DNA of 64,000 nt, taken from contig CAJAQB010000012.1 of the NCBI GenBank assembly GCA_903943975.1, positions 1-64,000 of the forward strand. Reading direction: 5' to 3'. The DNA comes from Synechococcus lacustris. Lineage in GTDB: Bacteria > Cyanobacteriota > Cyanobacteriia > PCC-6307 > Cyanobiaceae. Position numbers and translations under genes: made by a program. The notes below the pieces were generated by a model. That model saw only the letters and a list, made by a program, of their open reading frames with translations, did no database searches and was not told the origin of the DNA. Positions 4,297-46,265 of the stretch are shown in pieces; position 1 is the first letter of the stretch; every line of letters begins with the position of its first letter.

Positions 4297-4357
4297 TCTG
4301 GTTCCGATCACCCGTTTCTTTCACTCCTTCACACAACTCTCACTCACACACTCAACC

Positions 4358-4388: not shown

Positions 4389-4441
4389 GCCCTTTCCCCT
4401 GGTTTTGGTCTGCTGTTCCCCATCAACCCTGCTGCGCAACC

Positions 4442-7114: not shown

Positions 7115-7120
7115 GGGCCT

Positions 7121-10701: not shown

Positions 10702-10754
10702 GGCGCTGGCGGTGGCTGCTGTCAGGCAGGCTAGGGGCAGCCTTGACCCTGTTT

Positions 10755-14676: not shown

Positions 14677-14677
14677 C

Positions 14678-15112
14678 TCAATCGGCCAGCCAGGCTTTTA
14701 CTTTTTCAAGGGCGGGCCAGCCGGGACGCCGTTGCAGGCCATCGGCGATTGAAGTGTTCAGCTCCTTGGCCATTTCAGGCGAGAGGGCCATCACCCGCCG
14801 CACCAGGTCGATGTGTTCCCGCACCCCCTTGGCGCCGGTTTCCAGCAGGGCCAGCGACAGGTTGATTCGTGCTTGGGGGTCCTGGGGGTTGAGTTTCACG
14901 GCATAACGGGCGGAGCGCAGCGCCTCCTCCGGTTTGTCGCAGAGCAACTGCAGCCAGGAGAGGCAGGTCCAGCCCGCCGACTGTTTAGGGGCCTGCTGGG
15001 TGAAGGCCTCAAAATCGGCCAGCAGCTCCTGGGGGGCTTCACCGGCCTGGTAACGCTGGAGGGCCTGGCTGAATAGGCCTTCGGCGCTGCTGGGATCCTG
15101 CTGGGTGGTCAT
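14678..15112 (-). CDS. TPR-like protein
   Basis: MTTQQDPSSAEGLFSQALQRYQAGEAPQELLADFEAFTQQAPKQSAGWTCLSWLQLL. Start chosen at 15112 rather than the track start at 15262, which overlaps the HesB-like gene. Confidence 0.75.
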   Translation of the reverse strand: MTTQQDPSSAEGLFSQALQRYQAGEAPQELLADFEAFTQQAPKQSAGWTCLSWLQLLCDKPEEALRSARYAVKLNPQDPQARINLSLALLETGAKGVREHIDLVRRVMALSPEMAKELNTSIADGLQRRPGWPALEKVKAWLAD

Positions 15113-15191
15113 TGCTGAAGATTTCAGACCTTCAGGTTCCCATGCAGGCGGTGGTCCCGGTGCTCCAGGGGCGCGGCCCAGTTGCCCAGGC

Positions 15192-15584
15192 TCAAACCGA
15201 AAAGGAGCTGCCGCAACCACAGGTCTGGGTGGCGTTGGGGTTGCTGAAATTGAAACCACCACCGATCAGGGCACTGCTGAAGTCCAGCTGCATGCCATAG
15301 ATGTAGAGCAGGCTTTTCGGATCGCTCACCACCTGGAAGCTGGAGCCATCGGCCAGTTGATAGGTGTAGGTCTCGTCATCGGCGGCGATCTCGGCCCGAT
15401 CGATGAAGTCCATCGTGTAACTCATGCCGCTGCAGCCGCCGGAACGCACCCCCACCCGCAGCAGAAAGTTTTCGCCCTGTTGCTGCCGCAGCTTTGCCAG
15501 CTGGGCCATGGCCGGTTCGGTGATCTGGATGCCCTTGCCATCCACGGCCACGGTTGGTGCTGCGACTGGGGTGCTACTGGTCAT
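15192..15584 (-). CDS. Iron-sulfur cluster assembly accessory protein (HesB/IscA/SufA family)
   Basis: LRVGVRSGGCSGMSYTMDFID...NPNATQTCGCGSSFSV gives the three conserved cysteines. Start at ATG 15584. Confidence 0.93.
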   Translation of the reverse strand: MTSSTPVAAPTVAVDGKGIQITEPAMAQLAKLRQQQGENFLLRVGVRSGGCSGMSYTMDFIDRAEIAADDETYTYQLADGSSFQVVSDPKSLLYIYGMQLDFSSALIGGGFNFSNPNATQTCGCGSSFSV

Positions 15585-15615
15585 GGTTAAGGGTGGTAGG
15601 AGCTTTGCTGCATTC

Positions 15616-15666
15616 ACTCTATGGAGACTGCCAATCCCGCCGCTGTAGCAGCAGCATCCATAGAGT
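15616..15666. promoter_or_regulatory. 10-bp perfect dyad between the divergent HesB-like gene and zeta-carotene desaturase
   Basis: ACTCTATGGA (15616-15625) and TCCATAGAGT (15657-15666), 31-nt spacer. Regulatory role is inferred. Confidence 0.4.
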
Positions 15667-15681
15667 CTGGGCTGCTGCTGG

Positions 15682-17142
15682 GTGCCGGTGCGGGTTGCGA
15701 TCGTGGGGGCAGGATTGGCGGGGCTTTCCGCCGCGGTGGATCTCTGCGACGCCGGCCACCAGGTGGACATCTACGACGGCCGTCCCTTTGTGGGCGGCAA
15801 GGTGGGCAGCTGGGAAGACGCTGACGGCAACCACATCGAGATGGGCCTGCACGTTTTTTTCTTCAATTACACCAACCTGTTTGCGCTGATGCGCAAGGTG
15901 GGGGCCTTTGAGAACCTGCTGCCCAAAGACCACACCCATCTGTTTGTGAATAAGGGGGGCGACCTGCGGGCCCTCGATTTCCGCTTTGGCCTCGGCGCCC
16001 CCTTCAATGGCCTCAAGGCCTTTTTCACCACCCCCCAGCTCGACTGGATCGACAAGCTGCGCAACGCCCTGGCCCTGGGCACCAGCCCGATCGTGCGGGG
16101 CCTGGTGGACTACGAGGGGGCGATGGCGGTGATCCGGGCGCTGGATCGGATCAGCTTCCAGCAGTGGTTCCTGGGCCATGGCGGCAGCGCTAAGAGCATT
16201 GAACGGCTCTGGAATCCGATTGCCTATGCCCTCGGTTTCATCGATTGCGAGGCGATGTCTGCCCGCTGCATGCTCACGATCTTTTTGATGTTTGCCACCC
16301 GCACGGAGGCCTCAAAGCTCAACCTGCTCAAGGGTTCCCCCCAGCGCTGGTTACATCAGCCGATTCTCGATTACATCGAAAGCCGCGGCGCCCGACTACA
16401 CCTGCGCCAGCGGGTCACTGAAGTGCACTACGAAAACCAGCCCGGCGGCGAGGGCCGCGTAACCGGGCTGAGCCTGGCCACCCCGGAGGGGGAGCAGCGG
16501 CTTGAGGCTGATGTTTACCTGGCCGCTTGCGATGTGCCGGGCATCCAGCGGCTGTTGCCCCCGGCCTGGCGCCAGCACCGTCAGTTTGACGACATCTACA
16601 AACTTGAGGCGGTGCCCGTGGCCACGGTGCAGCTGCGCTACGACGGCTGGGTGACCGAACTGGGCGACAGCTCTGCAGCTGCTGCGGCCCGCGCTGATCT
16701 GGCCCGACCCGCCGGTCTCAACAATTTGCTCTACACCGCCGACGCAGATTTCAGCTGCTTTGCTGATCTGGCCCTGGCCAGCCCCGCCGACTACCGCCGC
16801 GAGGGCCTCGGTTCCCTGCTCCAGTGCGTGCTCACCCCCGGCGACCCCTGGATTCCCCGCAAGCTGGAGGAGATCGTTGCCCACACCGATGCCCAGGTGC
16901 GCCAGTTGTTCCCTTCGGCGGCTGGACTCCAGTTGGTTTGGAGCAATGTGGTGAAGCTGGCCCAATCGCTTTACCGCGAGGCGCCGGGGATGGAGCCCTT
17001 CCGGCCGGAGCAGCGCACACCGATCACCAACTTCTTCCTGGCCGGCAGCTACACCCGCCAGGACTACATCGATTCGATGGAGGGGGCCACCATGAGCGGA
17101 AGGCTGGCGGCCAGTGCGATCCTGGAAGCAGTAGGGGGCTGA
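15682..17142 (+). CDS. crtQ: 9,9'-di-cis-zeta-carotene desaturase
   Basis: FAD motif [85 protein letters not shown]. Confidence 0.93.
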
Positions 17143-17143
17143 G

Positions 17144-17590
17144 ATGGGGCGGTGGTTAGAACACAGCGTGGTCGCCGAGATCGCTGCCCCCCTGGAGCTG
17201 GTGTGGGCGGTGTGGATAGATCTGGAGGCAATGCCCCTCTGGATGCGTTGGATTGAATCGGTGGTGACCCTTGATGATCCCGACCTCACCGAATGGACCC
17301 TGGCGGCCCAGGGCTTCCGCTTCCAGTGGAAGGCCCGCATCAGCCAGAGAGTGGAAGGCCAGCAATTGCATTGGGAGTCGGTGGGGGGCTTGCCCACCAA
17401 GGGGGCGGTGCGTTTTTACCCCGAAGGCCCCAACCGCACGGCGGTGAAATTGACCGTGAGCTATGAGCTGCCCGGGATATTGGCGCCGTTGATGGATTCG
17501 GCAATGCTCGGCGGCTTGGTGAGCAAAGAACTGCAGGCCAATCTCGATCGCTTTAAAGACCTGGTGGAAGAGCGGGCTGCGGCTCGATAG
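17144..17590 (+). CDS. SRPBCC (polyketide cyclase/dehydrase-like) family protein
   Basis: VVAEIAAPLELVWAVWIDLEAMPLWMRWIESV...WKARISQRVEGQQLHWESVGG; follows crtQ directly. Confidence 0.85.
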   Translation: MGRWLEHSVVAEIAAPLELVWAVWIDLEAMPLWMRWIESVVTLDDPDLTEWTLAAQGFRFQWKARISQRVEGQQLHWESVGGLPTKGAVRFYPEGPNRTAVKLTVSYELPGILAPLMDSAMLGGLVSKELQANLDRFKDLVEERAAAR

Positions 17591-17619
17591 GGTGCGGCCA
17601 GAGCTGGTCTGCCCCGTTC

Positions 17620-18147
17620 GTGAATCTGGTGTGTGGCCCTGGGGTCCGTGGCTCAGTTTTCTGCCTGAGCTTGGCCCTGCCGCTGGCGGGCCTGCTAACG
17701 GCCTGCGGCTCTAACACTTCCCAACTGCCCCCGCCCTTGCCCCGCCCGCGCCTGGTAAAGCCAGCGCCGCTGGCCCCAGCCCCCCTGGTGGCCGGTTTCA
17801 CGCCCCTGCCAAGCCCTGAGGCGGTGTTGGCGGCCCTGCCCAAGGGCCGAGTGGATCCCTTCGCCGCCCCCCCGGCGCCGGCCACCGCCACCGCCACCGC
17901 TGCGGCTGCGGCTGCTAAGCCCAGTGCTCCGCCGGCCCTGCGGCTCACCGGTGTGGTGCTCAGCAATGGCATGGCCCAGGCTTTTGTGGACTACGGCAAC
18001 CAGTCGGGGCCGGTGGTGGTGGGGGAAAAGGGGGGAGGGTCGATTGCCTGGTTACCGGAGGGTTGGCGGGTGGCCGCCATTGATGTGCAGCAGGGGCAGT
18101 TGCTCTTGCAGGCTGACGACGGTCGGCGGGTGCCCTATCAGCTCTGA
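17620..18147 (+). CDS. Putative lipoprotein, possibly PilP-like
   Basis: GTG start; lipobox-like LLTAC after a hydrophobic N-terminus, Pro/Ala-rich linker, DPFAAP then LTGVVLSNGMAQAFVDYGNQSGPVVVGE. Confidence 0.55.
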   Translation: MNLVCGPGVRGSVFCLSLALPLAGLLTACGSNTSQLPPPLPRPRLVKPAPLAPAPLVAGFTPLPSPEAVLAALPKGRVDPFAAPPAPATATATAAAAAAKPSAPPALRLTGVVLSNGMAQAFVDYGNQSGPVVVGEKGGGSIAWLPEGWRVAAIDVQQGQLLLQADDGRRVPYQL

Positions 18148-18929
18148 ACCTGGCTTTGGCTCTGGAGCCAGGCGGCCACCAGGCCCCCCAGGTCGTGCGG
18201 TTGGGCCTCCGCCTGCACCCGCCCCAGCAGCTCCTGGCAAACCGCACTGGTTTGGGGGCCGATCGAAATCACCGCCACCGGCGCCAGCAGCTGCCGCCAG
18301 CGGGCGCCGAAATGGGCCTGCAGCAGTTGAACGCTGTGGCGCACGGTTTTGCCGCTGCTGAAACAGATCGCCCCCACCTCGCCGGCGGCTAGGGCCGCGG
18401 CGGTGGCCGCCGGCAAGGCCTCCGGACAACGGGATTCATAGGCGGCCACCTCCACCACCCGGGCGCCGGCTTCGCCGAAGGCCTCCGCCAGCAGCGTGCG
18501 GCCGCCGCTTTGCACCCGGGGCAAGAGGATCCGCTGGCCCCAAACCCCCACCGGAAAGTGTTCCAGCAGGCTGTCGGCCACAAAATCTGGTGGCACGAAA
18601 TCGGCCGGGGCCCCCAGCCCCTCCAGGCAGCGGGCGGTTTTACGGCCCACGGCGGCGATGCGCAGGCCCCTGGGCCGGGCGGCCAGGCTGCTGCCCCGCC
18701 GCTGCAGCCGTTGCTCTAAGGCCTGGGCGCCGTTGGCGCTGGAGATCACCAGCCAGTGGAAGCTGTCCAGTTCGGCCAGGGCATCGTCGAGGGGGCCCCA
18801 TTCGTCTGGGGGGCCGATCACCAGGGCGGGCAGGTCGAGCACGGTGGCGCCTGCCGCCTCAAATAAGCGGCGTGCCTCCCCTAGCTGGGTTTCAGCCCGG
18901 GTGAGCACCAGTGTTTGCCCAGGGGCCAT
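18138..18929 (-). CDS. hemD: Uroporphyrinogen-III synthase
   Basis: LVLTRAETQLGEARRLFEAAGATVLDLPALVIGPP...AVGRKTARCLEGLG...FSSGKTVRH...VAVISIGPQTSAVCQEL. Confidence 0.9.
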   Translation of the reverse strand: MAPGQTLVLTRAETQLGEARRLFEAAGATVLDLPALVIGPPDEWGPLDDALAELDSFHWLVISSANGAQALEQRLQRRGSSLAARPRGLRIAAVGRKTARCLEGLGAPADFVPPDFVADSLLEHFPVGVWGQRILLPRVQSGGRTLLAEAFGEAGARVVEVAAYESRCPEALPAATAAALAAGEVGAICFSSGKTVRHSVQLLQAHFGARWRQLLAPVAVISIGPQTSAVCQELLGRVQAEAQPHDLGGLVAAWLQSQSQVQS

Positions 18930-18931
18930 GG

Positions 18932-20143
18932 TCAGGCGGCGTCCAGTTTCACCAGTTCACCGGCCTTTTGGGCCAGGAGCTCGGCATCCTGGCGGCGCCC
19001 CTGTTCCAGCAGCAGGCCGATGGCAGTGAGGAAGCTGCCGCGGGCGGCGTCGATGTTGCCCCCCAGAAACTGGGCGGCGGCGAGATTTTGGTAGATCTCG
19101 GGATTGCGGGGGGCCAGCTGCAGCGCAGTTTCATAGGCCTCCAGGGCGCCAGCGATGTCGCCGCCCTTGCGCCGGATTAGGCCGAGGTTGTACCAGCCCA
19201 GCATCACTTCCGGCACCTGGCGGGTGGCGGCTTCCGTGAGGGCGGCGGCCTCCTCCAGCTTGTTTTGACGCAGTAGCAGGGCGCCAAGGTTGAGCCGGGC
19301 GGAGATGTTGAGCCGCGGGGCTAGGGGCACCGCCAGGGCGGCCCGGTAGTGCTGTTCCGCCAGGGGTAGGTCGATCTGGCCATGGGCAATGGCCAGGTGC
19401 AGCAGCAGCTCGTAGCGCTCGGCATGGTCGTTGGCGCCGCACTGGGCCAGGCCCAGCTCCAGCAGCTCCACGGCCCGATCCAGCTGGCCGGCTTCGATTT
19501 CCAGGCCGGCCAGCTTGGCGCAGGCATAGGGATCGCCGGGGCGTTCCAGCAGCTCCGCCTCCATGGCCTGGCGCAGCCGCGCCGCCTTGTGACCTGCGAT
19601 CAGCTGATCCGGTTGGTAACCGGTGTGCACCAGGGCCGGTACGGGGCAGTCCACCACCCGCCAATGGGCTTCCTGTTGCTGCAGGGCGATGACGCTGTCG
19701 TCGATCATTGAGTGATAGGCCCGGTTCCAGCGCAGGGCCGGGTGGCGTCGAAACAGGCGGCTCACCAAGGAATAGGGGGCCTGGGCGGCGCCCTCCTCGT
19801 AGCGCAGCAGGTTGATCACCAGCACATCGGGCTGGGCCATCAGCGCTAGGAGCGGCGCCTTGGCATCGGCCAGCAGAAACTCATCGGCATCCAGCACCAA
19901 CACCCAGTCCCCACTCACCAGCTCCAGGGCGCGGTTACGGGCCGGGGCAAAATCGCCGGGCCATTCCATCGTTTCTACCCGCGCCCCGGCCTCGCGGGCC
20001 AGGTCGATGGTGTTGTCGCTGGAGCCGGTGTCGAGCACCAGCAACTCATCGCAGAACCCCTCCACCGACTTCAGGCAGCGGCTGATCTGCGCCTCTTCGT
20101 TGCGCACGATCATCGAGAGGCTGAGCATGCCGACCAGGGTCAA
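18932..20143 (-). CDS. GT2 family glycosyltransferase with TPR repeats
   Basis: LSLSMIVRNEEAQISRCLKSVEGFCDELLVLDTGSSDNTIDLAREAGA...DWVLVLDADEFL, followed by a TPR tail. Confidence 0.92.
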   Translation of the reverse strand: MTLVGMLSLSMIVRNEEAQISRCLKSVEGFCDELLVLDTGSSDNTIDLAREAGARVETMEWPGDFAPARNRALELVSGDWVLVLDADEFLLADAKAPLLALMAQPDVLVINLLRYEEGAAQAPYSLVSRLFRRHPALRWNRAYHSMIDDSVIALQQQEAHWRVVDCPVPALVHTGYQPDQLIAGHKAARLRQAMEAELLERPGDPYACAKLAGLEIEAGQLDRAVELLELGLAQCGANDHAERYELLLHLAIAHGQIDLPLAEQHYRAALAVPLAPRLNISARLNLGALLLRQNKLEEAAALTEAATRQVPEVMLGWYNLGLIRRKGGDIAGALEAYETALQLAPRNPEIYQNLAAAQFLGGNIDAARGSFLTAIGLLLEQGRRQDAELLAQKAGELVKLDAA

Positions 20144-32944: not shown

Positions 32945-34165
32945 TCAGAAGCGCAGCTGCAAGCCGCCGCCCAGGTTCCAGAGGGGGCTGTTGCTGTACA
33001 GCTCGGCTCCGCCCCGGGCGTAGATCACCGTGTTGTTGGCAAAGCCGTAGCTGAGCTGGCCCTGGAGGCCGAGGCCGCTGGCTTCAACGGCCGGGCTGCG
33101 CAGGTTGAGGGCTTGGCCGTTAACAACACCAATGCTGGTGCTGGGGGTATCCCCCAGGAATCCCCGCTGCAGCCACGACACCCGCACCGAGGGGGTAAAG
33201 AGGTTTTTGCCATCGCGTATCGGCGCTCTCCAGGTAACGCCGAGATCGAGGCCGCCGAAGCTGCTGTTTATGGATCCGATGCGGTAGCGGTTATTCGTTA
33301 CGGCGTCGAAACGGCTGCCGCCATTGAGATTGAGGCTGCTGCTGCTGAGCAACAGGCTCGGTTCCAGCAGCTGACTTTCCGAGAGCTTCCAGCGCAGGCC
33401 CGCCTGGAGGGCGGCATTAAAGGCGCTGCCGCTTTGGCTCAGGTTGTAGCTGCGCACCCCGAAGGCATTGCTGCTGATCAGTGCCAGGGGGCTGGTGCCG
33501 TTCACCCCATCGAGGCCCAGGGCCCCATTCACAAACCAATCTGGGGTTTGGTACTGGGCAAACAAACCAGCGCCCGCCTCCTGCAGCGTTGAGGAGCTGC
33601 TGCTGAATCCCAGGATTCCAGCGCCATTGATGTTCTGTTCCGCCAGGCGCCCAAACACCCCGGCTCGGAACTGTTCGCTGAAGGCGTAGTCGAGCTTCAA
33701 GCCCGCGGCATAGCCGCCATTCAAAGTGCTGGCGCCGTAGCCATGGCGGGCGGGCAACAGGGTGCCGCCGCCGGTGCCCCCCCAGGCCCGCAGCCGCCAG
33801 CCATCCCGTTCGCTGTAGTAAGCCCCCGGGGTGGTGGCGAAGCGATAGGCGGGGTCGGCGCTGGTTTCAGGTCCAGGGGCCACCAGCTCCTTGGCGGCGG
33901 CAGGCACCTTCTGGGGTAGGGGTTCCAGCAGGTCCTGACTGAACAGCTGCCAATTGCTGAAGGCGGCGAGGGGGGCCAGGGTTGCTGCCGAGCGATTCAG
34001 CTGCACGGTCACCGGCACGCCCGGGCTGGGGCTGCTGGTAATTGGGGTGCTGGTAACGGGCGGGCAGCCGATCTCACTGCTGAAGGGATCACAGATCGCC
34101 TGGGCTGGGCTGGCCCCCAGGCTCAGAGCTGCCAGAGCAACGGCGACAAAATGGTGACGGCCCAT
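32945..34165 (-). CDS. Autotransporter-like outer-membrane beta-barrel protein
   Basis: Signal peptide MGRHHFVAVALAALSLGASPAQA from ATG 34165; YAAGLKLDYAFSEQFRAGVFGRLAEQNI...YARGGAELYSNSPLWNLGGGLQLRF with terminal aromatic. Confidence 0.75.
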   Translation of the reverse strand: MGRHHFVAVALAALSLGASPAQAICDPFSSEIGCPPVTSTPITSSPSPGVPVTVQLNRSAATLAPLAAFSNWQLFSQDLLEPLPQKVPAAAKELVAPGPETSADPAYRFATTPGAYYSERDGWRLRAWGGTGGGTLLPARHGYGASTLNGGYAAGLKLDYAFSEQFRAGVFGRLAEQNINGAGILGFSSSSSTLQEAGAGLFAQYQTPDWFVNGALGLDGVNGTSPLALISSNAFGVRSYNLSQSGSAFNAALQAGLRWKLSESQLLEPSLLLSSSSLNLNGGSRFDAVTNNRYRIGSINSSFGGLDLGVTWRAPIRDGKNLFTPSVRVSWLQRGFLGDTPSTSIGVVNGQALNLRSPAVEASGLGLQGQLSYGFANNTVIYARGGAELYSNSPLWNLGGGLQLRF

Positions 34166-34370
34166 GGGGGAGGCAGAGCTTTTGAAGGAGCTTAAGGATC
34201 CCCCAGGCCGCGGCAATGTATTAAGCGGGCCTGGGGGCTCTGGGAGAGGGGAAATCATGCAATTTTTGCAATTAAGCCCAGGCTTCGCTGGGGCCGGGCC
34301 ATTTTTCGCCCTTTTGGGAGCTGCGATTCCTGCTCTAACTTTTTAGGGTGAATAAATCTGTCTGAAGGCA

Positions 34371-37300
34371 TTGGCACCCTCCCCTGCTCCCTCCCCTGTC
34401 GTATCCATTCGTTCCACCCCACTCAATATCCTTTACGGCGAGTCAGGAAACCTGGATCTCAGCTTCGATGAGCAGACGACCACGGGCTATGGCCCCTGGT
34501 TGCAGTTACTCGTGCCTGCCCCCAGCGATCATTTGCAATTCGGGGCGGCTAGCTGGGCCGGGGGCAGCCTCAGCGCCCAGGCCCTCAGCTTCTCGGGGCC
34601 AAACGCCTCAGGGCTCTACACCCTCACCCATCCCTACACCGGCCAAACGCTTACCGGTAACAAGGGCGATCAGCTGCTGATCTGGAAATTTCCCATAGGT
34701 AGTTACGCCGCCGATGCCCCGCCCCTGGAGTTGCGGGTGCCGGTGGCTGTGGCTGCCACCACCCCCACCCTGGGCCCAGTGGCGATCATGGTGGGCGGCG
34801 GCTATGCCCTTGGGGCTGATCCCCTCCAAAACCCCAGCACTGACCCGGCGCTGCAGGCCCCAGCCCTGCCGGGGGCAATTGTGCCTGCGGTGGTACAGCT
34901 GGATAAGGATCCGATCAGCCCTGAATACGAAACCGCCACCGGTCCAAATTTTCCGCGCCAGTGGCGGCTCTCGGTGAATGGGGCCGCCGGCCAAACCCTC
35001 AAGGACCTCACCCTTAGCGACAGCCTGCCCAACGACCCCATTTATCTGGGTACCGATCCGGATGTGGTGAACTTGCCGGTGGTCCTAGCAAAGATCAGCA
35101 GCGAGCCCAAGCTCAATGCCGCCACTGCGCCTGGCAATAACCAGTTGCAGATCAACTACGGCACGGTTACTGGTTTGGCCGCCCAGGAGGACCTGCGGGC
35201 GGAGACCCGCTTCTACATCCCCCCGACCCTCAACCAGGCCAGTGGCGCTCCGATCACTTACACCAACACCGCCAAGTTGGCAGGCACTTGGCTTAATCCT
35301 CCGCTGGGGACCCCTGGGGCCGTGGAGGTGCAAGATCAAGACCCGGAACCTGAAACGATCACGGCCAAGGCTCTAGCAATCCAGAAGTATGACGACAGGC
35401 CGGAAACTTTAGACAAATATGGTCGCGAACTTGCGGGCACTATCTTGCCAGGGGAGATCGTAAATTTTACCCTTGATTTTCAGGTTTCTGATTATTTCGC
35501 CTTTGGCGAACTGAAGATCGAAGATATCCTCGGAGATGGGCTGAGTTTCCTGCCTGGTACGGCCAAAATCCGATTACAGGAACAAGGTAACAGTCTCACT
35601 AATGGGGGGTTTGTTAATTATCTAGATAGTTACCTTGCCTACACTAAAGATTTTAGCTTGGGCAAGGATCGCCTGCAGTTTGATCTATCCAGCTGGCTAA
35701 AAGGCGCTGCCCTGCCAGCTGTGGACGATGGCATCCTGCAGGGGGGCTATGTGGGGGCCAAGGCGGGAGCCAGCCTTGGTAGCATCACTTTCCAGGCCAA
35801 AGTTGATGATTTATTTGTGGCCCCTAAGGTTGCAGGGCAAAACATCAAGGCCGCAGATAATTTGCGCAATGATGTCACATTTGAAGGGCAGATCTATAAT
35901 TACAATGCTGCCAATGCCAGTTTCAGCGATACCAATGTAGTTGTAAGTGACACCAGTGCCGAGGCCCTGCGCATTCCAGAGCCCAGCCTGGTTAAATCAA
36001 TCGTGGCCCGCAATGGCCAGCCCCTCACGGGGCCTGTGGTATTTGCCCCCGGCGACACGGTCACCTATCGATTGCGGGCGGTGTTGCCCACGGGCGATCT
36101 GCAGGCCATGGAGCTGTTGGATTGGTTGCCCACCCCGGGCTTCAGTATTGCTACGGATGCTGCCAATGGGGTTTCCAAGGCTGCCTTTGAAGCATCGGGC
36201 AGTGGCGCCACGGCCGCAAAGCCGCCGGCTGCTGGCAGCTTTGCCTACGGCAGTGAGCACACGGCGCCTCAACTCCAAGAAAATCTGATTCAGGTGGGCC
36301 CTGGCACCAATCAACTGTTGGCCAGTTTTCTAAATACTTCTGACCAGGCAAATAAGGGTCAGGTTGTTGATCTCTACTATACCGTTACGGCCAGCTCGGC
36401 GGTGATGGCAGACCGGCTGGAGCAAACAAATATTTCCCAGCTCAATTACAGTTCCTCCGATGGGGTAAAGCACTCCACAGATCTGGCGGTGGCGATTGGC
36501 GAGCGGCTATCGCCCGATCTGAAAATCCGTAAGGGGGTGGTGAAAACCAGCCGTGACAGTGACGTTACCCCTGACGTCACCCCTGGCGCCAGTTACAGCC
36601 CTGGTAGGAACTTTGGGGGGGTGGAATTTGCGCCAGCTGGCAGTATTGATCTTCCTTTTGTTGGGGGCAGTGGCAAAGGTATCCTCAGCAGCTCGGCCAT
36701 CAGTATTGCCGGTGGCAATGGTTCCACCGGAGCGGTAAAGAGCAGTAGCCTTGATTCAAATGTCTCGAATCTAGACGCCGGCGATTTGATTAGATTTGCA
36801 ATTGTAGTTGAGAACATCGGCACCAGCTATAGGGGTGCTTTTAATGTGCAGCTGCGCGATGATTTGCCAAAGGGTCTGAGCTATGCCGGCAACCTTTCCA
36901 TTGTTGATGGCACCGGAACGGCGCTGGCTTATACCAAGCCCGATGGTTCAGCCGCCACTGCCACCGACTTCTTTTCGCCTGCGGGGGTGATGCTCACCGA
37001 CCCTGGCGCCACCCCTGCCAGCGGTGTGGACGGGCTCAACGGCGGTGCCATCGATGCCTACAACGCCAGCAGCGGCCGGAACATCGCTGTGGTGGTATTT
37101 GATGCGGTTGTTGATACCAGTGCCTATGGGCAGCTGCCAGTCAACGGTGGATCGCTTAAAAATCAAGGCATTCTCGAAGACTACGCCAATGTGGATGAAC
37201 CGGGGGCAAACACGTTTCTGCCAGAGGCAGCTAATCTCAACGATCAGGCCACAGTAAGCTTGCGCAAGGGTGAAATAACCAAGTCGCTGGTGAGTACATC

Positions 37301-40300
37301 TGAGGCCTTTACCAGCGGTAGTAATGTGGCCATCGGCGAGGTTGTGCGCTATCGGCTGCAGGTGAATCTGCCTGAGGGGGAATTGGCAAAGTTTGTGATC
37401 AGCGATGTGCTGCCGGTTGGGATTTCTTTCCTGAATGATGGCAGCGCCCGCGGCCAGCTGCTGGGGGATCTCCAGGCCAGCAGTTCGCCAATTGGGGCCG
37501 ACGGTGTGCTTGCTGCGCCTTCAGTTAGCATCAATAACAATATTAAAACTCTCAATTGGAATTTCGGCAATCTAATAAACAGCAACCGCGACAATGCCTT
37601 TGTGGAGTCTGTGGCGCTGGAGTTCAATGCCCAGGTTGAAAACGTGGTTTCGAACCAGAACGGCACTACTTTGAGTAATATAGGTAGCTTCAACTTCAAC
37701 GGTATTAAAGAGGAGAAGTCTGCGCCCGTTGCTCTAACTGTGGTGGAGCCAGATTTCAGCATCACTAAATCGGCGAGCCCCAGCAGTGGCGATGCCGGTG
37801 ACCTGATCACCTATACGGTGACGATCAAGAACCAGGGCAAAGCTGATGCCTTTGATCTGCTGGTGGATGATCCTCTCGGCAATCTCGGCATTAATTTTGA
37901 TCTGCAATCGCTAACGATCCTCTCGGCTCCCGCCGGTAGCAACCCCAGCACCGTTGGCTCAGTAACTGACAAGGCCAGTGTGGCCGCAGGGGATCTTATC
38001 CATCTCAGTGTCGATCAGCTCAAGGTAGGCGAATCGCTGCAGTTCAGCTATAGCGGTGAGCTGTTGGCGGCCCTGCAGCCCGGCACTTCCCTAGCTAATA
38101 CCGCAAAGCTTAGCTACACCAGCTTGCCCGGTACCAATGCTGCCAGTGGCACTGCCAATGGTGAGAGAAATGGCAGCGATGGCATTGCTGGGGCCCTAAA
38201 CGATTACGCTGCCAGCGCCACGGCCAAGTTGATCAGTAAAGGTTTCACCCCCAGTAAAACCGTTAGGTCGACTTCCGAGCTAGCCACCAGCGGCAATGAT
38301 CTAGCCATTGGTGAGGTGGTGCGCTTCCGCCTCCAGGCCCTTTTCCCTGAGGGCACAATCACCGACCTCAAATTTAACGATGTCCTACCTGCGGGCTTCG
38401 AATATTTAGCAGATGGTGAGGCCAAGCTCGCCTTTGCCGCCACCAAGCCCGGAGATATCAGCTGGAGCCTTTCCGAGCCAATTGCAGACTATTACAAAGT
38501 TGCAAATGGTTCAAATAGTGAGGTGACCCCCACCAAGGCCTTTGCCCCCAGTCAAATCAATCAGGAACTGAGCTGGGCCCTTGGTGATCTGGTAAACCAA
38601 GATCGGCTTAATACCACAGCCGAATCGGTAATTATTGAATTCAATGCCCGAGTTCGCAATGTCACTGCCAACCAAGGGGTCACGGCCAATCAAGCGGCCA
38701 GTATCTTGATTAATAGTGCCACCATATCCCGTGCTGGCACTTCATCTGATAACCGATACAGCGAAACTCTTACAGGACCAAAGCAAACGATTATTGAGCC
38801 CAACCTTGTGCTCACCAAGAAGGCCTCGCCCGCCCCTACAGGCGGCTTCCAAGCCGGCGCCAAGCTCACATACACGATCAACATCACGAACGACGGAGGC
38901 ATGGCAGCCTTTGATGTGCAGGTAGAGGATTTACTCAGTGATCTTGGTGCAGCCTTTGATCTGCAAACGGTGGATCTCTCTAGCATTCCTGGCGCCAGCG
39001 ATCAGTCCAGCACCGCTGGGGTTGGGGCCCCCAACGATAAGGTAATCGTAACGATCCCACGGATTGATAAGGGTCAGAGTCTGAGTTTTAGCTTTACTGG
39101 GCTGCTCACCAATGCGGTTCAGATCAACAACAGCTATACGAATACCGCTACTGCCACCTGGAGCAGCCTGCCAGGAACTGCCATAGGCGAACGCGATGGG
39201 AGAGATGGTTTGCCTGGTGATTCTCCATCAAACACCCAGCCCCTCAATAACTATGCGGCCCACGGCATGGCTAATCTGGCCACGCGCTCCATTGTGTTTA
39301 AGAAATCAATTGCGCTCAGCTCTGAACCAGACAGTATTGGCAACAATCTCTATGTTGGTGAGAAGGTGCGCTTTCGCCTCCAGGCAGATTTGCCAGCCGG
39401 CACCTCCAGTGATGTTCGGATTAGTGATCTTTTGCCAGAGGGCCTCAGTTATGTGGCTGGCAGCACTAAACTGGCCCTAGTGGCCCAGAATAGTTCTGAG
39501 CTTACGCTAAGTGCCATCAGCAATGGGGCAGATTATTTTGTTAAGGCAAATGCGGATAATACGCTGGTCATTCCTGATCGTGCTTTTGAAAATCCCAGCA
39601 GTAGCGGTAGTTGGTCTTTTGGTAACATCGTAAATGCCAACAGTGTTGACGGTTCCACTGAATCATTGATCCTGGAGTTTGATGCCCAAATCGGCAATCA
39701 ATTGGCGAACCAAAATGGACGTGATTTTATAAATACTGCCACCCTTGCAGCCGGTAATTTTACCGGCAATAAGGCTCTAAGTTCCACGGCCCCAACCCTC
39801 ACCCTGAAGGAACCAAAGCTCACGCTCACTAAAACGGCTGACAGCGAGTGCTTAAACAGTCTTCAGGATCCCCAGGCCAACAGCGTTGGCTACAAGTTGG
39901 TGATTAGCAATAGCGGCACAGCTACAGCTTTTGACTTGGATCTACGCGATCTTTTACCGGCGGCGCCCAATGGCACCTTGCTCAACTTGCAGGTTGACTC
40001 GATCACTGCGCTGGGCAGTGCTGGAGCCTCCAACTTTGTGCTGGCCGCAGACAATGGCCCTCGCCTGTTGCACGGCACTATCGCCAAGTTGCCGGTGGGG
40101 GCAAGCTTCGAGATCCGCTACAGGGCCCAGCTCAGCGACCTGGCTGCGCTGCCAGGCAGTCCCGATGTGCCGGATGGCTTGCTCACCAATCTGGCTACGG
40201 TCACCTACACCTCTCTGCCTGGAATTGCCCCCCAGGAACGCACCGGCGCCGATGGATCGGGGGCTGGTCTAAATAATTACGCTGCCAGCCAGGCGCTGGC

Positions 40301-43300
40301 CGTTGCCGTCCAGTCCCATGCTTCCGCTGGCCCTGGGCTGGTGGTTGACGAAGACAACCTCCCAGGCGCCGGCGCCGAAGGCCCCAACAGCAGCATTGGC
40401 CAGAGCAGCAGCACTAAAATCAGCCTTAGTGCCGGCAGTTTTGGCATTAATACTGCCTCTTTGAAGTTGGGCAATAGCACTGTGGCCCTTGCCGGCAGCG
40501 CCGCCAGCGTTAGTGGTTTGGCCCTAGTGGATGCTGATGGCCAAAGCATCGATAAAGATGCCAACGGTCGCCAGATTCTTTGGGACTACGGCATCGTTGC
40601 CGCCCGCACCCTGCGCGGTTATGTGCAAACAACACCAGGCAGCAAAGTGACCCTAGTGGAGCTGCTATTCCCAGCCGCCCCCAGCATTGCCGCTGCATCT
40701 ACGGGCTCGCTAGAGATCAGTGCAAAATTGCTTGGTTCGCTTCAGAGCCACAGCGCGGCCCTTGCCGATAACAACTACAGCACACAACTCCTGGGTAGCT
40801 GGAAAGGTGCTGTGAAGTTGCAGGGCATCGAGCTGCTGCTCGCTGATAGCACTGCCGCCGCCACGGAAGCCTGCGACGACCTCGCCATTCCCATACCGGT
40901 CACGATCCTCGACGACATGCCAACGAGCCCGGCGATAACAGGCGACACGGCGGCCTGTTTTGGTGGCTGGAGTAAGAGCGGCAGCTTTGTAATTCAGCCG
41001 GGCGCTGATAACGGAGTTGTGGGCTTAGTGGTGGATGCCAATGGCAATGGCTCCTTTGATGCCGATGTGGTTTTAAAGGCCGCCAATGGCAGCATCACTG
41101 ATTTGCTGCAGCGCAGTTTTGTGGTTGCGGGTAAAGGGGAGCTGCTGGTTAGTACCAATCTGGCGGCGGGCAGCGGCAGCTGGACATTTAATCCGGCAAC
41201 CAATGGTGCAGCCCAGAGCAGCGAGACATTTTCGATTGGGGTGCGGGATGCCGATGGCGATATCAAATTGAGCAGCCACAGCTTGGTCTTGAACACCAAG
41301 GCGTCATTTGGCAGTGGCAATGATCGGGATTTATTGGTGAATGAGGATGCTTTGCCTAATGCTGGTGGCGAGAATGCGGCGGCGGCGGCCTATGGCAGCA
41401 CTGATACAGCCCAGTTGGTGATCCAGTCAGGGAGTTTGGCCACATCAGCGATTGGCTTTGACCCCTCGGCGGCGGCACTGGGCTCGATCCAATTACTGCG
41501 CAGTGGTCAGGATGTTACGGCGAATTTGGTGGCAGCAGCTTCCAATTCCCTATACAGCTTTGCTGTAACTAGTGGCGTGGGTTTAAACGACACACTCACG
41601 CTTTTCTGGGCCGGTAAGGCGGTGGCCCGCCTGAAGTTGGCATCCACAAGCCTGGCGATTGCTGCGGGCCAGAGCGGCTTCGTTTCCCTGGGGGCCGAGT
41701 TGCTTGGCCCATTGCCCACCCATCTGCTCAAGAACCAAGACGGTGGCTACCAGCCATTGTTATTTGAGGGTCTGCCGTTGATTCTGCAGTCGGCCGAGGG
41801 CTGCGCAGCCCCTGCAACGGTGTCGTTGAGTGTTTACGACGACCGCCCGGCCCTGCGGGTGGTGAATGGTGCCGGATTAACTAGCAGCACCGTGGCGGCC
41901 AATGCTTCCATTACTGGCAGTTGGGGGCGATCCCTTGATGCAACCGGTGGCTATGGGGCGGCGGTGGGAGCCGATAGCAGTGTTTATGCCAACGCTGATT
42001 TCGCTGCCGGGGCCGGCTGGGAAGTTTTGCTCAATGGCATTACCTACAGCAGTGCCCAGGCTGCCGCTGGCATTGCCGTAACGGCCACCGATGGCACCGC
42101 CCTGGGCAGCTTGCTGCTGCAGGCGGCGGGGGGCTGGAGTTTCAACTCCCTAGCCACTGTATTCAACCAGGAGCAGTTCAGTTTTTCTGTGCGGGTGCTG
42201 GATGCAGATGGTGATGCCAGGAGTGTGAACCATCGGATCACCGTGGTGGCAGCCAATGCCCCTGAAATGCAGGCTCCCCAGCTCAACCTTGATGAAGATA
42301 ATCTGCTGGCCGGTGCTGGCGAAGGGCCAAATTCAACTATTGGTGTAAGTGATCTTCAGTTTGTGGAACTCACGGCCAAAACTGCAGCGATTAATTCCTT
42401 GGTTTTCGCCCAGGCTGTTATTCCACCGGTGCTGCTGGATGCCAATGGTCTGCCACTCACTGGCTTGGTTTGGAGCCGGGGCCTGGATGGCTTGAGTCTC
42501 ACAGCCAGCTATGGCGGTGTAGATGTGTTGCGTTTGGAGCTGCCGGCCAATATTTTAGTGGCGGCGGGGAGCACCGGAAAACAGGCGCTCAGCGCCACCT
42601 TGCTGGCAGCGTTACCAAGCCACCTAAAGAGCAATGCTGATAACGACTACAGCCGCGGGCTGTTAACTCCAACAACTCCGCCCTTTAGCGGTTCCATAGA
42701 GATCACTGGCGTGGAGTTGCTGGCCACCGCCAGCAATGGTCAAACGGCCCACGCGATTGCCGGGCTCAGCATCCTCGACGATATGCCCTCTCCCTTGGAT
42801 CTTCAGGGCGGTGGCCAGATCTCTTTCGGTTCGGCTAATCCCCTCACCGGCAGTTTCCTGGTGAATCCAGGGGCAGATAACGGCAGCTTGGCAGTCAGTG
42901 TCACGGTAGCGGGGCAAGTGCTTCAGCTTGCCCCTAGCAGCCCTGGCGGTTTCCTTGTAATTCCGGATTGCGGACGGCTTGATATTCAGGTCGATTTTGC
43001 CGCTGGGATTGGCAGTTGGAGTTTTGCGGTTGATTCCACTGGCGCTGGCGCCACCCAGACAAGTTTCTCCATAAGTGTTCAGGATGGCGATGGCGATCGC
43101 CGCCTTGAAGCCCACACCATTCAGATTGATCTGCCCGCAGCGATTGATCTGGGGGCTGGGGGCGGTTTGCTGGTGCTGAATGAAGACGCCCTGGCGATCC
43201 CCCTGGTGGGTCCCGATTCCCCCTACACCAACAGCTACGACAACAGCGCCGCCAAGGGTGCCCAAACCAGTATCAGTATTCAGTTCAATGGCGATCAGGT

Positions 43301-45263
43301 GCAGGGAATCAGCTTCGACCCGGCCCGCTTGGCGGCCATTCAAAGCAGCGCCCCCGGACTTTCCTATCAATTAACCGATCAGAATCGCAGCCTTCAGCTA
43401 TTTCAGGCTGTCGATGGGGCCGCAGGTTTGCCCCAGGAGGTGGCGAGGGTCAGCTTGGGCAGTCTTGATTACTCTCTCGATGCTCTGCGTCCCAGGGTTA
43501 CTGCCACAGCAACCCTGTTTAGCAATCTGATTTCCCACAGCATTGCCGATAATCTATATGGGGCACTGGATATCAATCAGCTGCCGATCCTGCTGGAGCA
43601 GCAGGGCAGCAGTTCCCCTCCAGTTACAGACGTGCTTAATTTGCGCATCTATGACGATGTGGGTCGGGTGGGTATTGCCGATCCCTATGCAGATACTGGG
43701 GAGGCTAAATCAGTAAAAGCCCTGTCTGGGTTGGATTACGTTGATGAAGACACGCAAACAATTACCGGGGCTGGCGGTCAGATTCTGGGTACCTGGGGGG
43801 CATTGTCTGGGAACAATGGCGGCATCACTCCCCAGGCATCGCTTGGTTCTGCCGCCGCCCTTGGGGCCGATGGCCTTGGGGCAGGGCCAGCATTGGCCGC
43901 TGGCCAGCAATGGGAATTATGGGTGGATGTGAACCGCGATGGTCTAGAGGCTGCCAATGAGCAGTTCACGGCCTTGAATGCCGCCGCCCTCGATGGCACA
44001 GGTACGCAAAGTGGCCTTGAGATTCCAGGTATGGGTTGGTTCAAATTTTGGGATACCCAGGCCACAAAGGCGGCCGGCTGGGCGTTTAAGGCCCGCACTG
44101 ATGCGGCCCCAGGGGCGCTGGATTTTCGGGTATCGGTTGTGGATGCCGATGGTGATCGCGATAGCCAAACCCATACCCTGAGGGTCGGCACTGATGTGGG
44201 CCAGAAGCCCACGGTGAATGTTTATCTATTGATGGATGATTCGGTTTCGATGCAGGGATCAGACCCTTCCACGGTGGCGGCATCTGTGAAGAATCGACTG
44301 GAAGCTCAAAACAGATTGGCATTTATTGCCCTTCAGAATGCCGCCCAGTTGGCTGGTTATGGCTATTACACTGATGCTAATTCGCCTTTTTATAATTTCG
44401 ATGATACCTCGATAAATAATGTGCTAACCAATGGCACTGGCCAGATCGCTTCTTCATTGGATAGCTATCAATTGGCGGATGATCCGGCGGATGGCGCCTT
44501 GGCGGGTCGGGTGAATGTACATGTTATTAAATTTGGCTATCTGGTTGAATATACCCACGCTGAATTTGATGCCACTTCGGTGGATCAAGGGGTAAAAATT
44601 GCCCAGGATGTCCTTACTGTTGATACCCACGATAAGATCTATGGCAATAGCATTATTGGCAATTTGGATTGGCAGAGTCGTGGTTTGCCCACCCCGGGCG
44701 CCATCGACTATTACCAGGATCCTGCTCTGCCAGCTTCAAACCTCTATGCCGGCACAGAGATGCTCGGCGCTTTGCAAGGTTTCCAGCATCTTTTGGCGGC
44801 CCAGGAACTTGCCACAACTCCAAATTCCGATGAATACACCTTGGTGGTGATGACCACCGATGGGCGTCCTGAGCGCCGCTACTGGTGGGACAACCGTCCG
44901 GAGTTGGGCTTTGCGGGAACGGCGATCAATCTGCCCACCGAACTGGGTGGCGACCCAATCCTTTCCTCTGGCTTGCTCTACGACAGCAATGGCAACGGGC
45001 GCTACACCCCCACGGCCACTGGGGTTGACCAATGGAGCCTCAGCCAGCAGGCGATGAATACCAGCCTCAATGCCCTAGCGGCAAAGCTGGATAAGCCAGC
45101 AACCCAGTTGGTTGTCAATGCAATAGGCATGGGTGATGGCAGCAACGCCAGGTTCCCCCAGATCTATAACGATCTCTTCACCCAGCGCAGCTTCGATAAC
45201 AGTGCCAGTAACTGGACCTACCAGTGGACTGGTTCTGGAAGTTTGCCTTCGTTCCTCGGCTAA
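34371..45263 (+). CDS. Giant (3630 aa) multi-repeat surface/adhesin-like protein: DUF11/D2-like modules, T1SS-143-like modules, C-terminal VWA domain
   Basis: Single uninterrupted ORF, TTG start. Recurrent EPxxxxTKxASP...YTVTIxNxGxAxAFDxxVxDxL, IGExVRFRLQAxxPxGxxxDxxxxDxLPxGxxY, DEDNLPGAGxEGPNSxIG and DADGDxxxxxHxL. VWA MIDAS-like YLLMDDSVSMQGS and MTTDGRPE. Confidence 0.85.
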   Translation: MAPSPAPSPVVSIRSTPLNILYGESGNLDLSFDEQTTTGYGPWLQLLVPAPSDHLQFGAASWAGGSLSAQALSFSGPNASGLYTLTHPYTGQTLTGNKGDQLLIWKFPIGSYAADAPPLELRVPVAVAATTPTLGPVAIMVGGGYALGADPLQNPSTDPALQAPALPGAIVPAVVQLDKDPISPEYETATGPNFPRQWRLSVNGAAGQTLKDLTLSDSLPNDPIYLGTDPDVVNLPVVLAKISSEPKLNAATAPGNNQLQINYGTVTGLAAQEDLRAETRFYIPPTLNQASGAPITYTNTAKLAGTWLNPPLGTPGAVEVQDQDPEPETITAKALAIQKYDDRPETLDKYGRELAGTILPGEIVNFTLDFQVSDYFAFGELKIEDILGDGLSFLPGTAKIRLQEQGNSLTNGGFVNYLDSYLAYTKDFSLGKDRLQFDLSSWLKGAALPAVDDGILQGGYVGAKAGASLGSITFQAKVDDLFVAPKVAGQNIKAADNLRNDVTFEGQIYNYNAANASFSDTNVVVSDTSAEALRIPEPSLVKSIVARNGQPLTGPVVFAPGDTVTYRLRAVLPTGDLQAMELLDWLPTPGFSIATDAANGVSKAAFEASGSGATAAKPPAAGSFAYGSEHTAPQLQENLIQVGPGTNQLLASFLNTSDQANKGQVVDLYYTVTASSAVMADRLEQTNISQLNYSSSDGVKHSTDLAVAIGERLSPDLKIRKGVVKTSRDSDVTPDVTPGASYSPGRNFGGVEFAPAGSIDLPFVGGSGKGILSSSAISIAGGNGSTGAVKSSSLDSNVSNLDAGDLIRFAIVVENIGTSYRGAFNVQLRDDLPKGLSYAGNLSIVDGTGTALAYTKPDGSAATATDFFSPAGVMLTDPGATPASGVDGLNGGAIDAYNASSGRNIAVVVFDAVVDTSAYGQLPVNGGSLKNQGILEDYANVDEPGANTFLPEAANLNDQATVSLRKGEITKSLVSTSEAFTSGSNVAIGEVVRYRLQVNLPEGELAKFVISDVLPVGISFLNDGSARGQLLGDLQASSSPIGADGVLAAPSVSINNNIKTLNWNFGNLINSNRDNAFVESVALEFNAQVENVVSNQNGTTLSNIGSFNFNGIKEEKSAPVALTVVEPDFSITKSASPSSGDAGDLITYTVTIKNQGKADAFDLLVDDPLGNLGINFDLQSLTILSAPAGSNPSTVGSVTDKASVAAGDLIHLSVDQLKVGESLQFSYSGELLAALQPGTSLANTAKLSYTSLPGTNAASGTANGERNGSDGIAGALNDYAASATAKLISKGFTPSKTVRSTSELATSGNDLAIGEVVRFRLQALFPEGTITDLKFNDVLPAGFEYLADGEAKLAFAATKPGDISWSLSEPIADYYKVANGSNSEVTPTKAFAPSQINQELSWALGDLVNQDRLNTTAESVIIEFNARVRNVTANQGVTANQAASILINSATISRAGTSSDNRYSETLTGPKQTIIEPNLVLTKKASPAPTGGFQAGAKLTYTINITNDGGMAAFDVQVEDLLSDLGAAFDLQTVDLSSIPGASDQSSTAGVGAPNDKVIVTIPRIDKGQSLSFSFTGLLTNAVQINNSYTNTATATWSSLPGTAIGERDGRDGLPGDSPSNTQPLNNYAAHGMANLATRSIVFKKSIALSSEPDSIGNNLYVGEKVRFRLQADLPAGTSSDVRISDLLPEGLSYVAGSTKLALVAQNSSELTLSAISNGADYFVKANADNTLVIPDRAFENPSSSGSWSFGNIVNANSVDGSTESLILEFDAQIGNQLANQNGRDFINTATLAAGNFTGNKALSSTAPTLTLKEPKLTLTKTADSECLNSLQDPQANSVGYKLVISNSGTATAFDLDLRDLLPAAPNGTLLNLQVDSITALGSAGASNFVLAADNGPRLLHGTIAKLPVGASFEIRYRAQLSDLAALPGSPDVPDGLLTNLATVTYTSLPGIAPQERTGADGSGAGLNNYAASQALAVAVQSHASAGPGLVVDEDNLPGAGAEGPNSSIGQSSSTKISLSAGSFGINTASLKLGNSTVALAGSAASVSGLALVDADGQSIDKDANGRQILWDYGIVAARTLRGYVQTTPGSKVTLVELLFPAAPSIAAASTGSLEISAKLLGSLQSHSAALADNNYSTQLLGSWKGAVKLQGIELLLADSTAAATEACDDLAIPIPVTILDDMPTSPAITGDTAACFGGWSKSGSFVIQPGADNGVVGLVVDANGNGSFDADVVLKAANGSITDLLQRSFVVAGKGELLVSTNLAAGSGSWTFNPATNGAAQSSETFSIGVRDADGDIKLSSHSLVLNTKASFGSGNDRDLLVNEDALPNAGGENAAAAAYGSTDTAQLVIQSGSLATSAIGFDPSAAALGSIQLLRSGQDVTANLVAAASNSLYSFAVTSGVGLNDTLTLFWAGKAVARLKLASTSLAIAAGQSGFVSLGAELLGPLPTHLLKNQDGGYQPLLFEGLPLILQSAEGCAAPATVSLSVYDDRPALRVVNGAGLTSSTVAANASITGSWGRSLDATGGYGAAVGADSSVYANADFAAGAGWEVLLNGITYSSAQAAAGIAVTATDGTALGSLLLQAAGGWSFNSLATVFNQEQFSFSVRVLDADGDARSVNHRITVVAANAPEMQAPQLNLDEDNLLAGAGEGPNSTIGVSDLQFVELTAKTAAINSLVFAQAVIPPVLLDANGLPLTGLVWSRGLDGLSLTASYGGVDVLRLELPANILVAAGSTGKQALSATLLAALPSHLKSNADNDYSRGLLTPTTPPFSGSIEITGVELLATASNGQTAHAIAGLSILDDMPSPLDLQGGGQISFGSANPLTGSFLVNPGADNGSLAVSVTVAGQVLQLAPSSPGGFLVIPDCGRLDIQVDFAAGIGSWSFAVDSTGAGATQTSFSISVQDGDGDRRLEAHTIQIDLPAAIDLGAGGGLLVLNEDALAIPLVGPDSPYTNSYDNSAAKGAQTSISIQFNGDQVQGISFDPARLAAIQSSAPGLSYQLTDQNRSLQLFQAVDGAAGLPQEVARVSLGSLDYSLDALRPRVTATATLFSNLISHSIADNLYGALDINQLPILLEQQGSSSPPVTDVLNLRIYDDVGRVGIADPYADTGEAKSVKALSGLDYVDEDTQTITGAGGQILGTWGALSGNNGGITPQASLGSAAALGADGLGAGPALAAGQQWELWVDVNRDGLEAANEQFTALNAAALDGTGTQSGLEIPGMGWFKFWDTQATKAAGWAFKARTDAAPGALDFRVSVVDADGDRDSQTHTLRVGTDVGQKPTVNVYLLMDDSVSMQGSDPSTVAASVKNRLEAQNRLAFIALQNAAQLAGYGYYTDANSPFYNFDDTSINNVLTNGTGQIASSLDSYQLADDPADGALAGRVNVHVIKFGYLVEYTHAEFDATSVDQGVKIAQDVLTVDTHDKIYGNSIIGNLDWQSRGLPTPGAIDYYQDPALPASNLYAGTEMLGALQGFQHLLAAQELATTPNSDEYTLVVMTTDGRPERRYWWDNRPELGFAGTAINLPTELGGDPILSSGLLYDSNGNGRYTPTATGVDQWSLSQQAMNTSLNALAAKLDKPATQLVVNAIGMGDGSNARFPQIYNDLFTQRSFDNSASNWTYQWTGSGSLPSFLG

Positions 45264-45308: not shown

Positions 45309-46265
45309 GTGACCAGCAGTCGCCAGCGCCCCGAATCGCCCTTGCACCGCTGGGTGCGGCCGCTGATGGGTGCCCTGGCCACCATCGGCGCCATTGATAC
45401 CGGCTCGATCACGCTCGAGCGCTGGGGGCTGATTGGCAAGCTCTCCTGTCCGGGGGGCAGCGGCGGTTGCGACAAGGTGCTCACCAGCCCCTGGGGCAGC
45501 CTCTTCGGCCAGCCCCTGGCCCTCTTCGGTTTTCTGGCCTATGGGGCGATCCTGCTGCTATCGCTGTTGCCGCTGATCCCTGCGGTGCAGCAATGGTTGG
45601 CTGATCGGGTGGCCGCCAGCGTTAGCGGCCTCGGCGCCCGCCGCAGTGGCCGCACCCCAGATTTGTTTTGGCACCTGGGTTTTCTGCTCAGCCTCGCCAT
45701 GGCTGTATTCAGCCTGGTGCTGGTGGGCTTGATGTTGTTCAAGATCCAGGCGATCTGTGCCTTCTGTTTGCTCTCCGCCTGCCTCAGCCTCAGTCTGTTG
45801 CTGCTCCATGGGTTCGGCCGGGAATGGGAGGACCGCGGTCAGCTGATCTTCCGCACGGTGCTGGTGGCGTTGTTTGTGGCGTTGTTGGGCCTGGGCTGGG
45901 CCGCCGCCGTCGATAGGCCAGCGGTGCTCACCGAGAAGGGCGCCCCCCCGGCGATCCTCAGCATTAGCACTCCCGCCAAGGAGGCCCTCGCCAGCCACCT
46001 GACCAACACTGGTGTGGTGTTGTACGCCGCCTATTGGTGTCCCCACTGCCATGAACAGAAGGAACTGTTTGGCAAGAAAGCCGTCGCAAAGCTCACCCAG
46101 GTGGAGTGCGCCGCCGATGGCAAGAATTCCCAGGTGGCCCTTTGCGAAAGCAAGAAAATCGAGGGTTTCCCCAGTTGGGAGATCAATGGCAAGATCGAGT
46201 CAGGGGTGAAAACCCTCAATCAGCTGGCTGATCTCAGTGGCTACAAAGGTCCGCGCAACTTCTAG
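45309..46265 (+). CDS. Vitamin K epoxide reductase (VKOR)-thioredoxin-like fusion protein
   Basis: VKOR TM domain (CPGGSGGCDKVLTSPWGSLFGQPLALFGFLAYG; CAFC) and Trx-like tail VVLYAAYWCPHCHEQKELFGKKA. Confidence 0.93.
   Translation: MTSSRQRPESPLHRWVRPLMGALATIGAIDTGSITLERWGLIGKLSCPGGSGGCDKVLTSPWGSLFGQPLALFGFLAYGAILLLSLLPLIPAVQQWLADRVAASVSGLGARRSGRTPDLFWHLGFLLSLAMAVFSLVLVGLMLFKIQAICAFCLLSACLSLSLLLLHGFGREWEDRGQLIFRTVLVALFVALLGLGWAAAVDRPAVLTEKGAPPAILSISTPAKEALASHLTNTGVVLYAAYWCPHCHEQKELFGKKAVAKLTQVECAADGKNSQVALCESKKIEGFPSWEINGKIESGVKTLNQLADLSGYKGPRNF

Follow-up and report, generated by a model that had tools for sequence, protein, structure and literature searches.

Giant genes are conspicuous in picocyanobacteria, and in marine Synechococcus the giant protein SwmB takes part in swimming and in grazing defence (PMC4949707, PMC9387257, PMC7522525). 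Several Synechococcus giants have been recovered in exoproteomes and called interaction proteins, and they rarely match between strains (PMC4949707, PMC9387257, PMC7522525), which makes it difficult to work out what they do. Elsewhere, the LapA-type RTX adhesins – Pseudomonas LapA, Aeromonas AhLap and MpIBP – are giant single chains with an Ig-like stalk and a VWA domain near the C-terminus, with no Sec signal and with a type I secretion system (T1SS) in the genome. T1SS adhesins leave the cell with the C-terminus in front; this end bears the ligand-binding domains, and the opposite end is retained at the outer membrane (PMC9180339, PMC12077191). The LapA VWA domain has a part in surface attachment (PMC9180339), and that of AhLap is the distal ligand-binding domain (PMC12077191).

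Here, we describe a giant gene and its divergent neighbour in a 64,000-nucleotide stretch of a Synechococcus lacustris contig (the window). The giant shares the listed features of the LapA-type adhesins, and differs from them in having no RTX repeats (no GGxGxD motif and no PF00353 match), no T1SS C-terminal signal that the NCBIfam target-domain models recognise, a VWA domain that stands very last, and no adjoining T1SS, LapD or LapG genes (T1SS genes were absent among the flanking genes scanned), with a divergent barrel partner instead. It resembles the Gram-positive pilus proteins of the RrgA/GBS104/PitA type, with their D2/Cna-B stalks, in combining D2-type isopeptide modules with a VWA tip, but it is one polypeptide of a Gram-negative organism without a sortase motif or pilin subunits, and a profile search of the PDB with its VWA sequence came back empty. 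The partner has the 12-strand translocator fold and N-terminal helix of classical autotransporters (BrkA, EspP, EstA, NalP), whereas its passenger region is a stub and the giant is a separate, divergent gene. Nor is it the Omp85-type TpsB of two-partner secretion (TpsA/TpsB), as a domain scan found the autotransporter beta-domain alone and no Omp85-type TpsB with POTRA domains. SwmB and other picocyanobacterial giants, from the same group of organisms, are likewise very large, repetitive and strain-variable surface proteins; SwmB differs in its length of 10,791 aa and in its ties to swimming and grazing defence, and the published descriptions consulted mention neither a VWA cap nor a barrel partner. 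Judging from profile similarity, the D2-type module is also used in another ultra-large surface fibre, the Aureispira grappling-hook protein GhpA (E 1.1e-9, PDB 9flp), with the D2-type modules at 35430-39770 of the window behind the match; the shared part is small, a single stalk module, and the window giant gives no sign of a heteromeric or homomeric hook.

The constant VWA tip and the neighbouring barrel, found together across genera, point to an undescribed two-gene cell-surface system. Searches of the main texts of open-access papers found no account of the VWA family or of the barrel partner, although an earlier one may exist.

Organisation of the giant gene

The giant is encoded by a single frame with the following features:

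34371..45263 (+): gene for the predicted giant surface protein, 3630 aa, TTG start, no signal peptide at the predicted N-terminus as judged by eye
34371..35360 (+): N-terminal domain, aa 1-330, common to genome G001 (62% identity) and genera g10 and g45 (44-49%)
35445..40235 (+): stalk part 1, D2 and DUF11-type modules, from profile matches
aa about 359-481, 968-1109, 1293-1442 and 1652-1792: four RrgB-D2 isopeptide-type modules
aa about 797-930, 1128-1257, 1476-1599 and 1819-1946: DUF11-type modules, interspersed among the D2 modules
40347..44165 (+): stalk part 2, four divergent T1SS-143-like modules, from motif and alignment
44187..45260 (+): C-terminal VWA domain, aa 3273-3630 (358 aa), from AlphaFold, Foldseek and homologues
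44235..44249 (+): MIDAS motif DDSVS, aa 3289-3293, from conservation
44754-44756 and 44859-44861 (+): further MIDAS residues T3462 and D3497, from conservation

The preliminary description reported an uninterrupted 10.9 kb ORF in a core-genome context, and both the frame of 3630 codons and its core neighbours (RimO/MiaB-like, VKOR, NadB-like and BacA) are confirmed. Because an open frame of this length is far beyond chance, and because homologues of both its ends occur in other genomes, the ORF is real. A stop lies only five codons upstream of the TTG start. Relatives are conserved from about the tenth residue or earlier, which means that no long leader has been overlooked. The protein is acidic (pI 4.4) and has five cysteines only. 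The ORF is poorer in GC than the remainder of the window (0.56 versus 0.65), and its GC3 of 0.60 compares with 0.77-0.80 for neighbouring genes, the barrel gene included. A tandem-repeat finder detected no DNA-level repeats in the ORF, which indicates that the modules are old and not recent duplications. Short DNA tandem repeats are present at 13171-13250 (15/30-bp units) and 13709-13797 (6/24-bp units), inside an ORF at 13162-14676 (-).

A phmmer search of the whole giant against the PDB returned no match, and aa 1-330 matched no family in domain-model searches. The DUF11/D2-like modules named in the preliminary description score well above the curated cut-offs: PF01345 at 84.4 bits (cut-off 24.6) and TIGR01451 at 111.1 (cut-off 24) for DUF11, and TIGR04226 (RrgB_K2N_iso_D2) at 105.1 bits (cut-off 30) for the isopeptide D2 module, in four stretches. 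Candidate Lys-Asn isopeptide residues look compatible, by eye, in three of the D2 modules. The second part of the stalk, which had been called T1SS-143-like, does consist of four modules of about 300-330 aa (starting at aa 1993, 2324, 2641 and 2937), each with (D/N)EDxL at its start and DxDGD at its end and with 24-39% identity to the first; its score against TIGR03660 (T1SS_rpt_143), 26.7 bits, falls below the cut-off of 66.05, and the likeness is one of resemblance only.

The VWA domain is unseen by Pfam and NCBIfam models. An AlphaFold model built from 20 homologues is confident (pLDDT 85.0, pTM 0.89), and its top Foldseek matches are VWA-containing proteins: the streptococcal pilus-tip adhesin proteins PitA and PilB, complement C2/factor B, inter-alpha-inhibitor heavy chain and Plasmodium TRAP. 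Across the 20 homologues, each of the residues D3289, S3291, S3293, T3462 and D3497 is either invariant or conserved to at least 90%. As modelled, the C-terminal domain has a VWA fold with an intact MIDAS, in agreement with what had been read from the letters in the preliminary description. That the giant might be a truncated protein was considered, a VWA not usually being the last domain, and rejected, because the homologues end at nearly the same place.

A VWA-capped family with exchanged bodies

The VWA cap, of about 350 aa, was found in 28 of the 400 genomes sampled within the family, representing six of 59 genera, and, in a sample of 386 genomes drawn from the whole phylum, in no other family. 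A scan of 84,980 species returned only records of Synechococcus, Cyanobium, Synechococcaceae and Aphanothece cf. minutissima, and is a narrow one in that it required near-exact peptide patterns. The giant's C-terminal domain appears to be an undescribed VWA subfamily.

In full-length relatives the VWA domain is always the last, and the bodies and N-termini in front of it differ. Giants of g5 and g35 carry the cap behind DUF4347 with rhodanese or RTX, and those of g6 behind cadherin, CshA and tandem-95 repeats. Giants of g45 and g10 (G125, G199 and G250) have the window-type N-terminus, a D2/DUF11 stalk and the VWA domain, with VCBS/cadherin replacing the T1SS-143-like part. The module combination of the window giant is therefore one assembly of a modular family, and the earlier suggestion that it is lineage-specific is only partly borne out: two further genera share its N-terminus, D2/DUF11 stalk and VWA, and the cap occurs in six. 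The giants are thus recognisable as one family across six genera despite unrelated bodies, and a constant C-terminal module together with a constant partner gene offers a handle on them.

A second VWA-capped subgroup (L044, L045, L046 and L152) lies mostly between dnaB and mnmG; it has a DUF4347 N-terminus, with Big_12 in L044, ahead of the VWA cap, and has a different C-terminal end. No barrel stands beside these giants, which are an exception to the divergent pairing described below. Two VWA-capped copies are in tandem in L045. Tandem VWA-capped giants are also present at L031 (genome G063; 2146-8262 and 8315-19216, both on the minus strand, 2039 and 3634 aa), where there is one barrel gene, and at L036 a VWA remnant persists between giant and barrel (9051-9188).

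The divergent barrel gene and its association with the giant

Immediately upstream of the giant is a gene on the opposite strand:

34259..34370: intergenic region between the divergent giant and barrel genes
32945..34258 (-): partner gene for an outer-membrane protein with signal peptide, stub region and 12-strand autotransporter-type barrel
34067..34093 (-): conserved CDPFSSEIGC-type motif (CxDP...C, two cysteines), just after the signal peptide

The partner has 437 codons from its first ATG, although translation more probably begins at a later ATG that still precedes the signal peptide. The signal peptide is followed by a short region with the cysteine motif, a helix, and a 12-strand barrel from residue ~153. 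PF03797, the autotransporter beta-domain, scores 48.2 bits (cut-off 26), and the best structural matches of the barrel model are the autotransporter translocators BrkA, EstA, EspP and NalP. There is no large passenger on the same chain, the stub being roughly 100 residues of 437 aa in total. A promoter scan of the intergenic region found no sigma-70-type consensus promoter.

A full-length or nearly full-length barrel is present in 26 of the 400 family genomes, and the VWA module in 23 of these 26 as opposed to five of the 374 without a barrel (Fisher 1.7e-29, a value that ignores relatedness). In the three barrel genomes in which no VWA was found, the start of a giant adjoins the barrel and the contig then ends (G318), the contig ends at the barrel (G002), or the barrel is frameshifted and no giant is detected (G291). 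From one genus to another the pair turns up in unrelated genomic neighbourhoods, and general synteny therefore cannot account for the linkage. Cultured strains with the pair include Synechococcus sp. BO 8801, CS-1332 and Cyanobium sp. N.Huapi 1H5.

The two genes also appear to share their fate. At 20 readable loci, several of them with giants cut by contig ends, a giant accompanies an intact barrel, either adjacent or on a contig ending in the giant, and at none does a giant accompany a broken barrel. Of six loci that have lost their giant or keep it only in decayed form, four have a broken barrel (Fisher 0.001); like the linkage counts, these numbers were assembled after the pattern had been seen and take no account of relatedness. 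The broken barrels have one stop each (G090 and G196), frameshifts (G291) or are reduced to an 84-aa remnant (G077), and draft-genome sequencing errors may account for some of these. An intact barrel stands beside a decayed giant in G313 and G241. At the G196 locus (L148), where the barrel at 6570-7922 (-) has its stop, the divergent neighbour at 8175-11576 (+) is a 1134-aa autotransporter with a barrel of its own, possibly a natural replacement of the VWA giant.

Within g6, the VWA domains are 88-97% identical in all pairs. The barrels form two groups with 79-90% identity within and 61-64% between, and the N-terminal 300 aa of the giants fall into matching groups, with 75-86% identity within and 64-70% between; the comparison leaves out G273, with suspect barrel identities of 21-24%, and the N-terminus of G226. 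Read from these identities, the pattern favours a barrel partnered with the giant's N-terminus and not with the near-constant VWA, although such co-variation could arise from linkage alone, the two lying a few hundred bases apart. Co-evolution of barrel and VWA was also considered and set aside: their distances correlate overall (r 0.86), which tells nothing as long as no species tree is set beside it, and the g6 barrels follow the N-terminus, not the VWA.

Export, display and competing readings

The modules, the VWA fold and the conserved MIDAS support the surface adhesin reading of the preliminary description, whose domain calls also stand; it treated the protein as lineage-specific, which is only partly so, and overlooked the conserved barrel gene next door. 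We consider it very likely that the giant is a surface protein, and its function as an adhesin with a VWA tip is probable. A functional coupling of the barrel to the giant is slightly more probable still. For the combined proposal, in which one giant polypeptide acts as a cell-surface adhesin together with a partner in the outer membrane, we see the chances as evenly balanced. Against it count the lack of RTX repeats and of a recognised T1SS C-terminal signal, the absence of T1SS genes from the flanks scanned, the barrel-less subgroup, and the intact barrels beside decayed giants in G313 and G241.

Export by a T1SS is moderately likely: the giant lacks a Sec signal, and elsewhere the genome encodes a set of ABC and HlyD proteins for type I secretion. 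That set lies on another contig, with two ABC subunits and HlyD above cut-off (L098, 8491-13859 of G000:C3; ABC subunits of 592 and 710 aa), and no large substrate gene was seen beside it in 17 kb. The giant would leave the cell C-terminus first, and the barrel protein would keep the giant's N-terminus at the outer membrane, as its holder or as an assembly partner. As in T1SS adhesins, the VWA domain would then form the far end of the fibre, with the chain anchored by its N-terminus; the stalk would project the tip outward, and the tip could bind a ligand through a MIDAS-bound divalent metal, attaching the cell to another cell or to a particle. The barrel is the best candidate for receiving the giant's N-terminus. 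That it acts as an N-terminal anchor or assembly factor is a possibility to which we give somewhat less than even weight, and the full arrangement – a picocyanobacterial system of two genes, in which a giant without signal peptide, with an interchangeable stalk and a constant VWA tip, has its N-terminus displayed or anchored by a dedicated stand-alone autotransporter-type barrel – is put forward tentatively. If the barrel does hold the giant, this would be a new way of displaying giant adhesins, with outer-membrane holding unlike LapA retention, two-partner secretion or autotransport. The constant tip and constant partner make this class of giants testable.

The fold of the barrel invites another reading, in which it is a dedicated outer-membrane export pore and passenger and translocator have become separate genes of a split autotransporter. 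The translocator fold, N-terminal helix and mere stub of a passenger fit this, as do relatives of the barrel that are fused in cis to passengers of 1.1-3.7k aa and the G196 locus, which has a broken stand-alone barrel and, instead of the giant, an autotransporter equipped with its own barrel. Judged by eye, however, the cis-autotransporters have a signal peptide and the giant has none to take it into the periplasm, and the cis-autotransporter passengers and the giants have no sequence similarity; a version in which the two share passengers was rejected on that ground, and we regard the split arrangement as improbable. It is about equally improbable that the barrel is only a neighbour, kept in place by a shared promoter or by linkage and unconnected with the giant either physically or functionally. 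The subgroup without a barrel and the intact barrels beside decayed giants in G313 and G241 would be expected if so, but the pair is kept in unrelated contexts in several genera, the giant or its remains lie beside the barrel in nearly every barrel-bearing genome, and barrels decay once the giant is gone; a chance neighbour is disfavoured by this linkage and shared fate.

A different role for the giant itself would be that of a shield or spacer coating the cell against grazers or phages, with the VWA domain serving secretion, folding or assembly and the barrel being a co-expressed surface protein. Picocyanobacterial giants are strain-variable and have been proposed as cell shields, with SwmB tied to grazing defence (PMC4949707, PMC9387257), and the bodies of the VWA-capped giants are freely exchanged. 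Against this, the VWA and its MIDAS are the most conserved part and outlast replacement of the whole body, and a shield has no need of a MIDAS. We consider the shield unlikely, if a little less so than the two readings above, and prefer the adhesin with an outer-membrane partner.

Two further observations concern the barrel and the surroundings of the giant. The large cis-autotransporters of g5 and g35 (L154-L162; 1.1-3.7k aa), have barrels related to the partner and unrelated passengers, and several of these different passengers are joined to near-identical barrel ends (FWASDRGTTWRASGGVTFQF). Directly 3′ of the giant is a VKOR-thioredoxin fusion (45309-46265, +), conserved in G001 and not in other genera, beside which we note the two conserved cysteines of the barrel partner.
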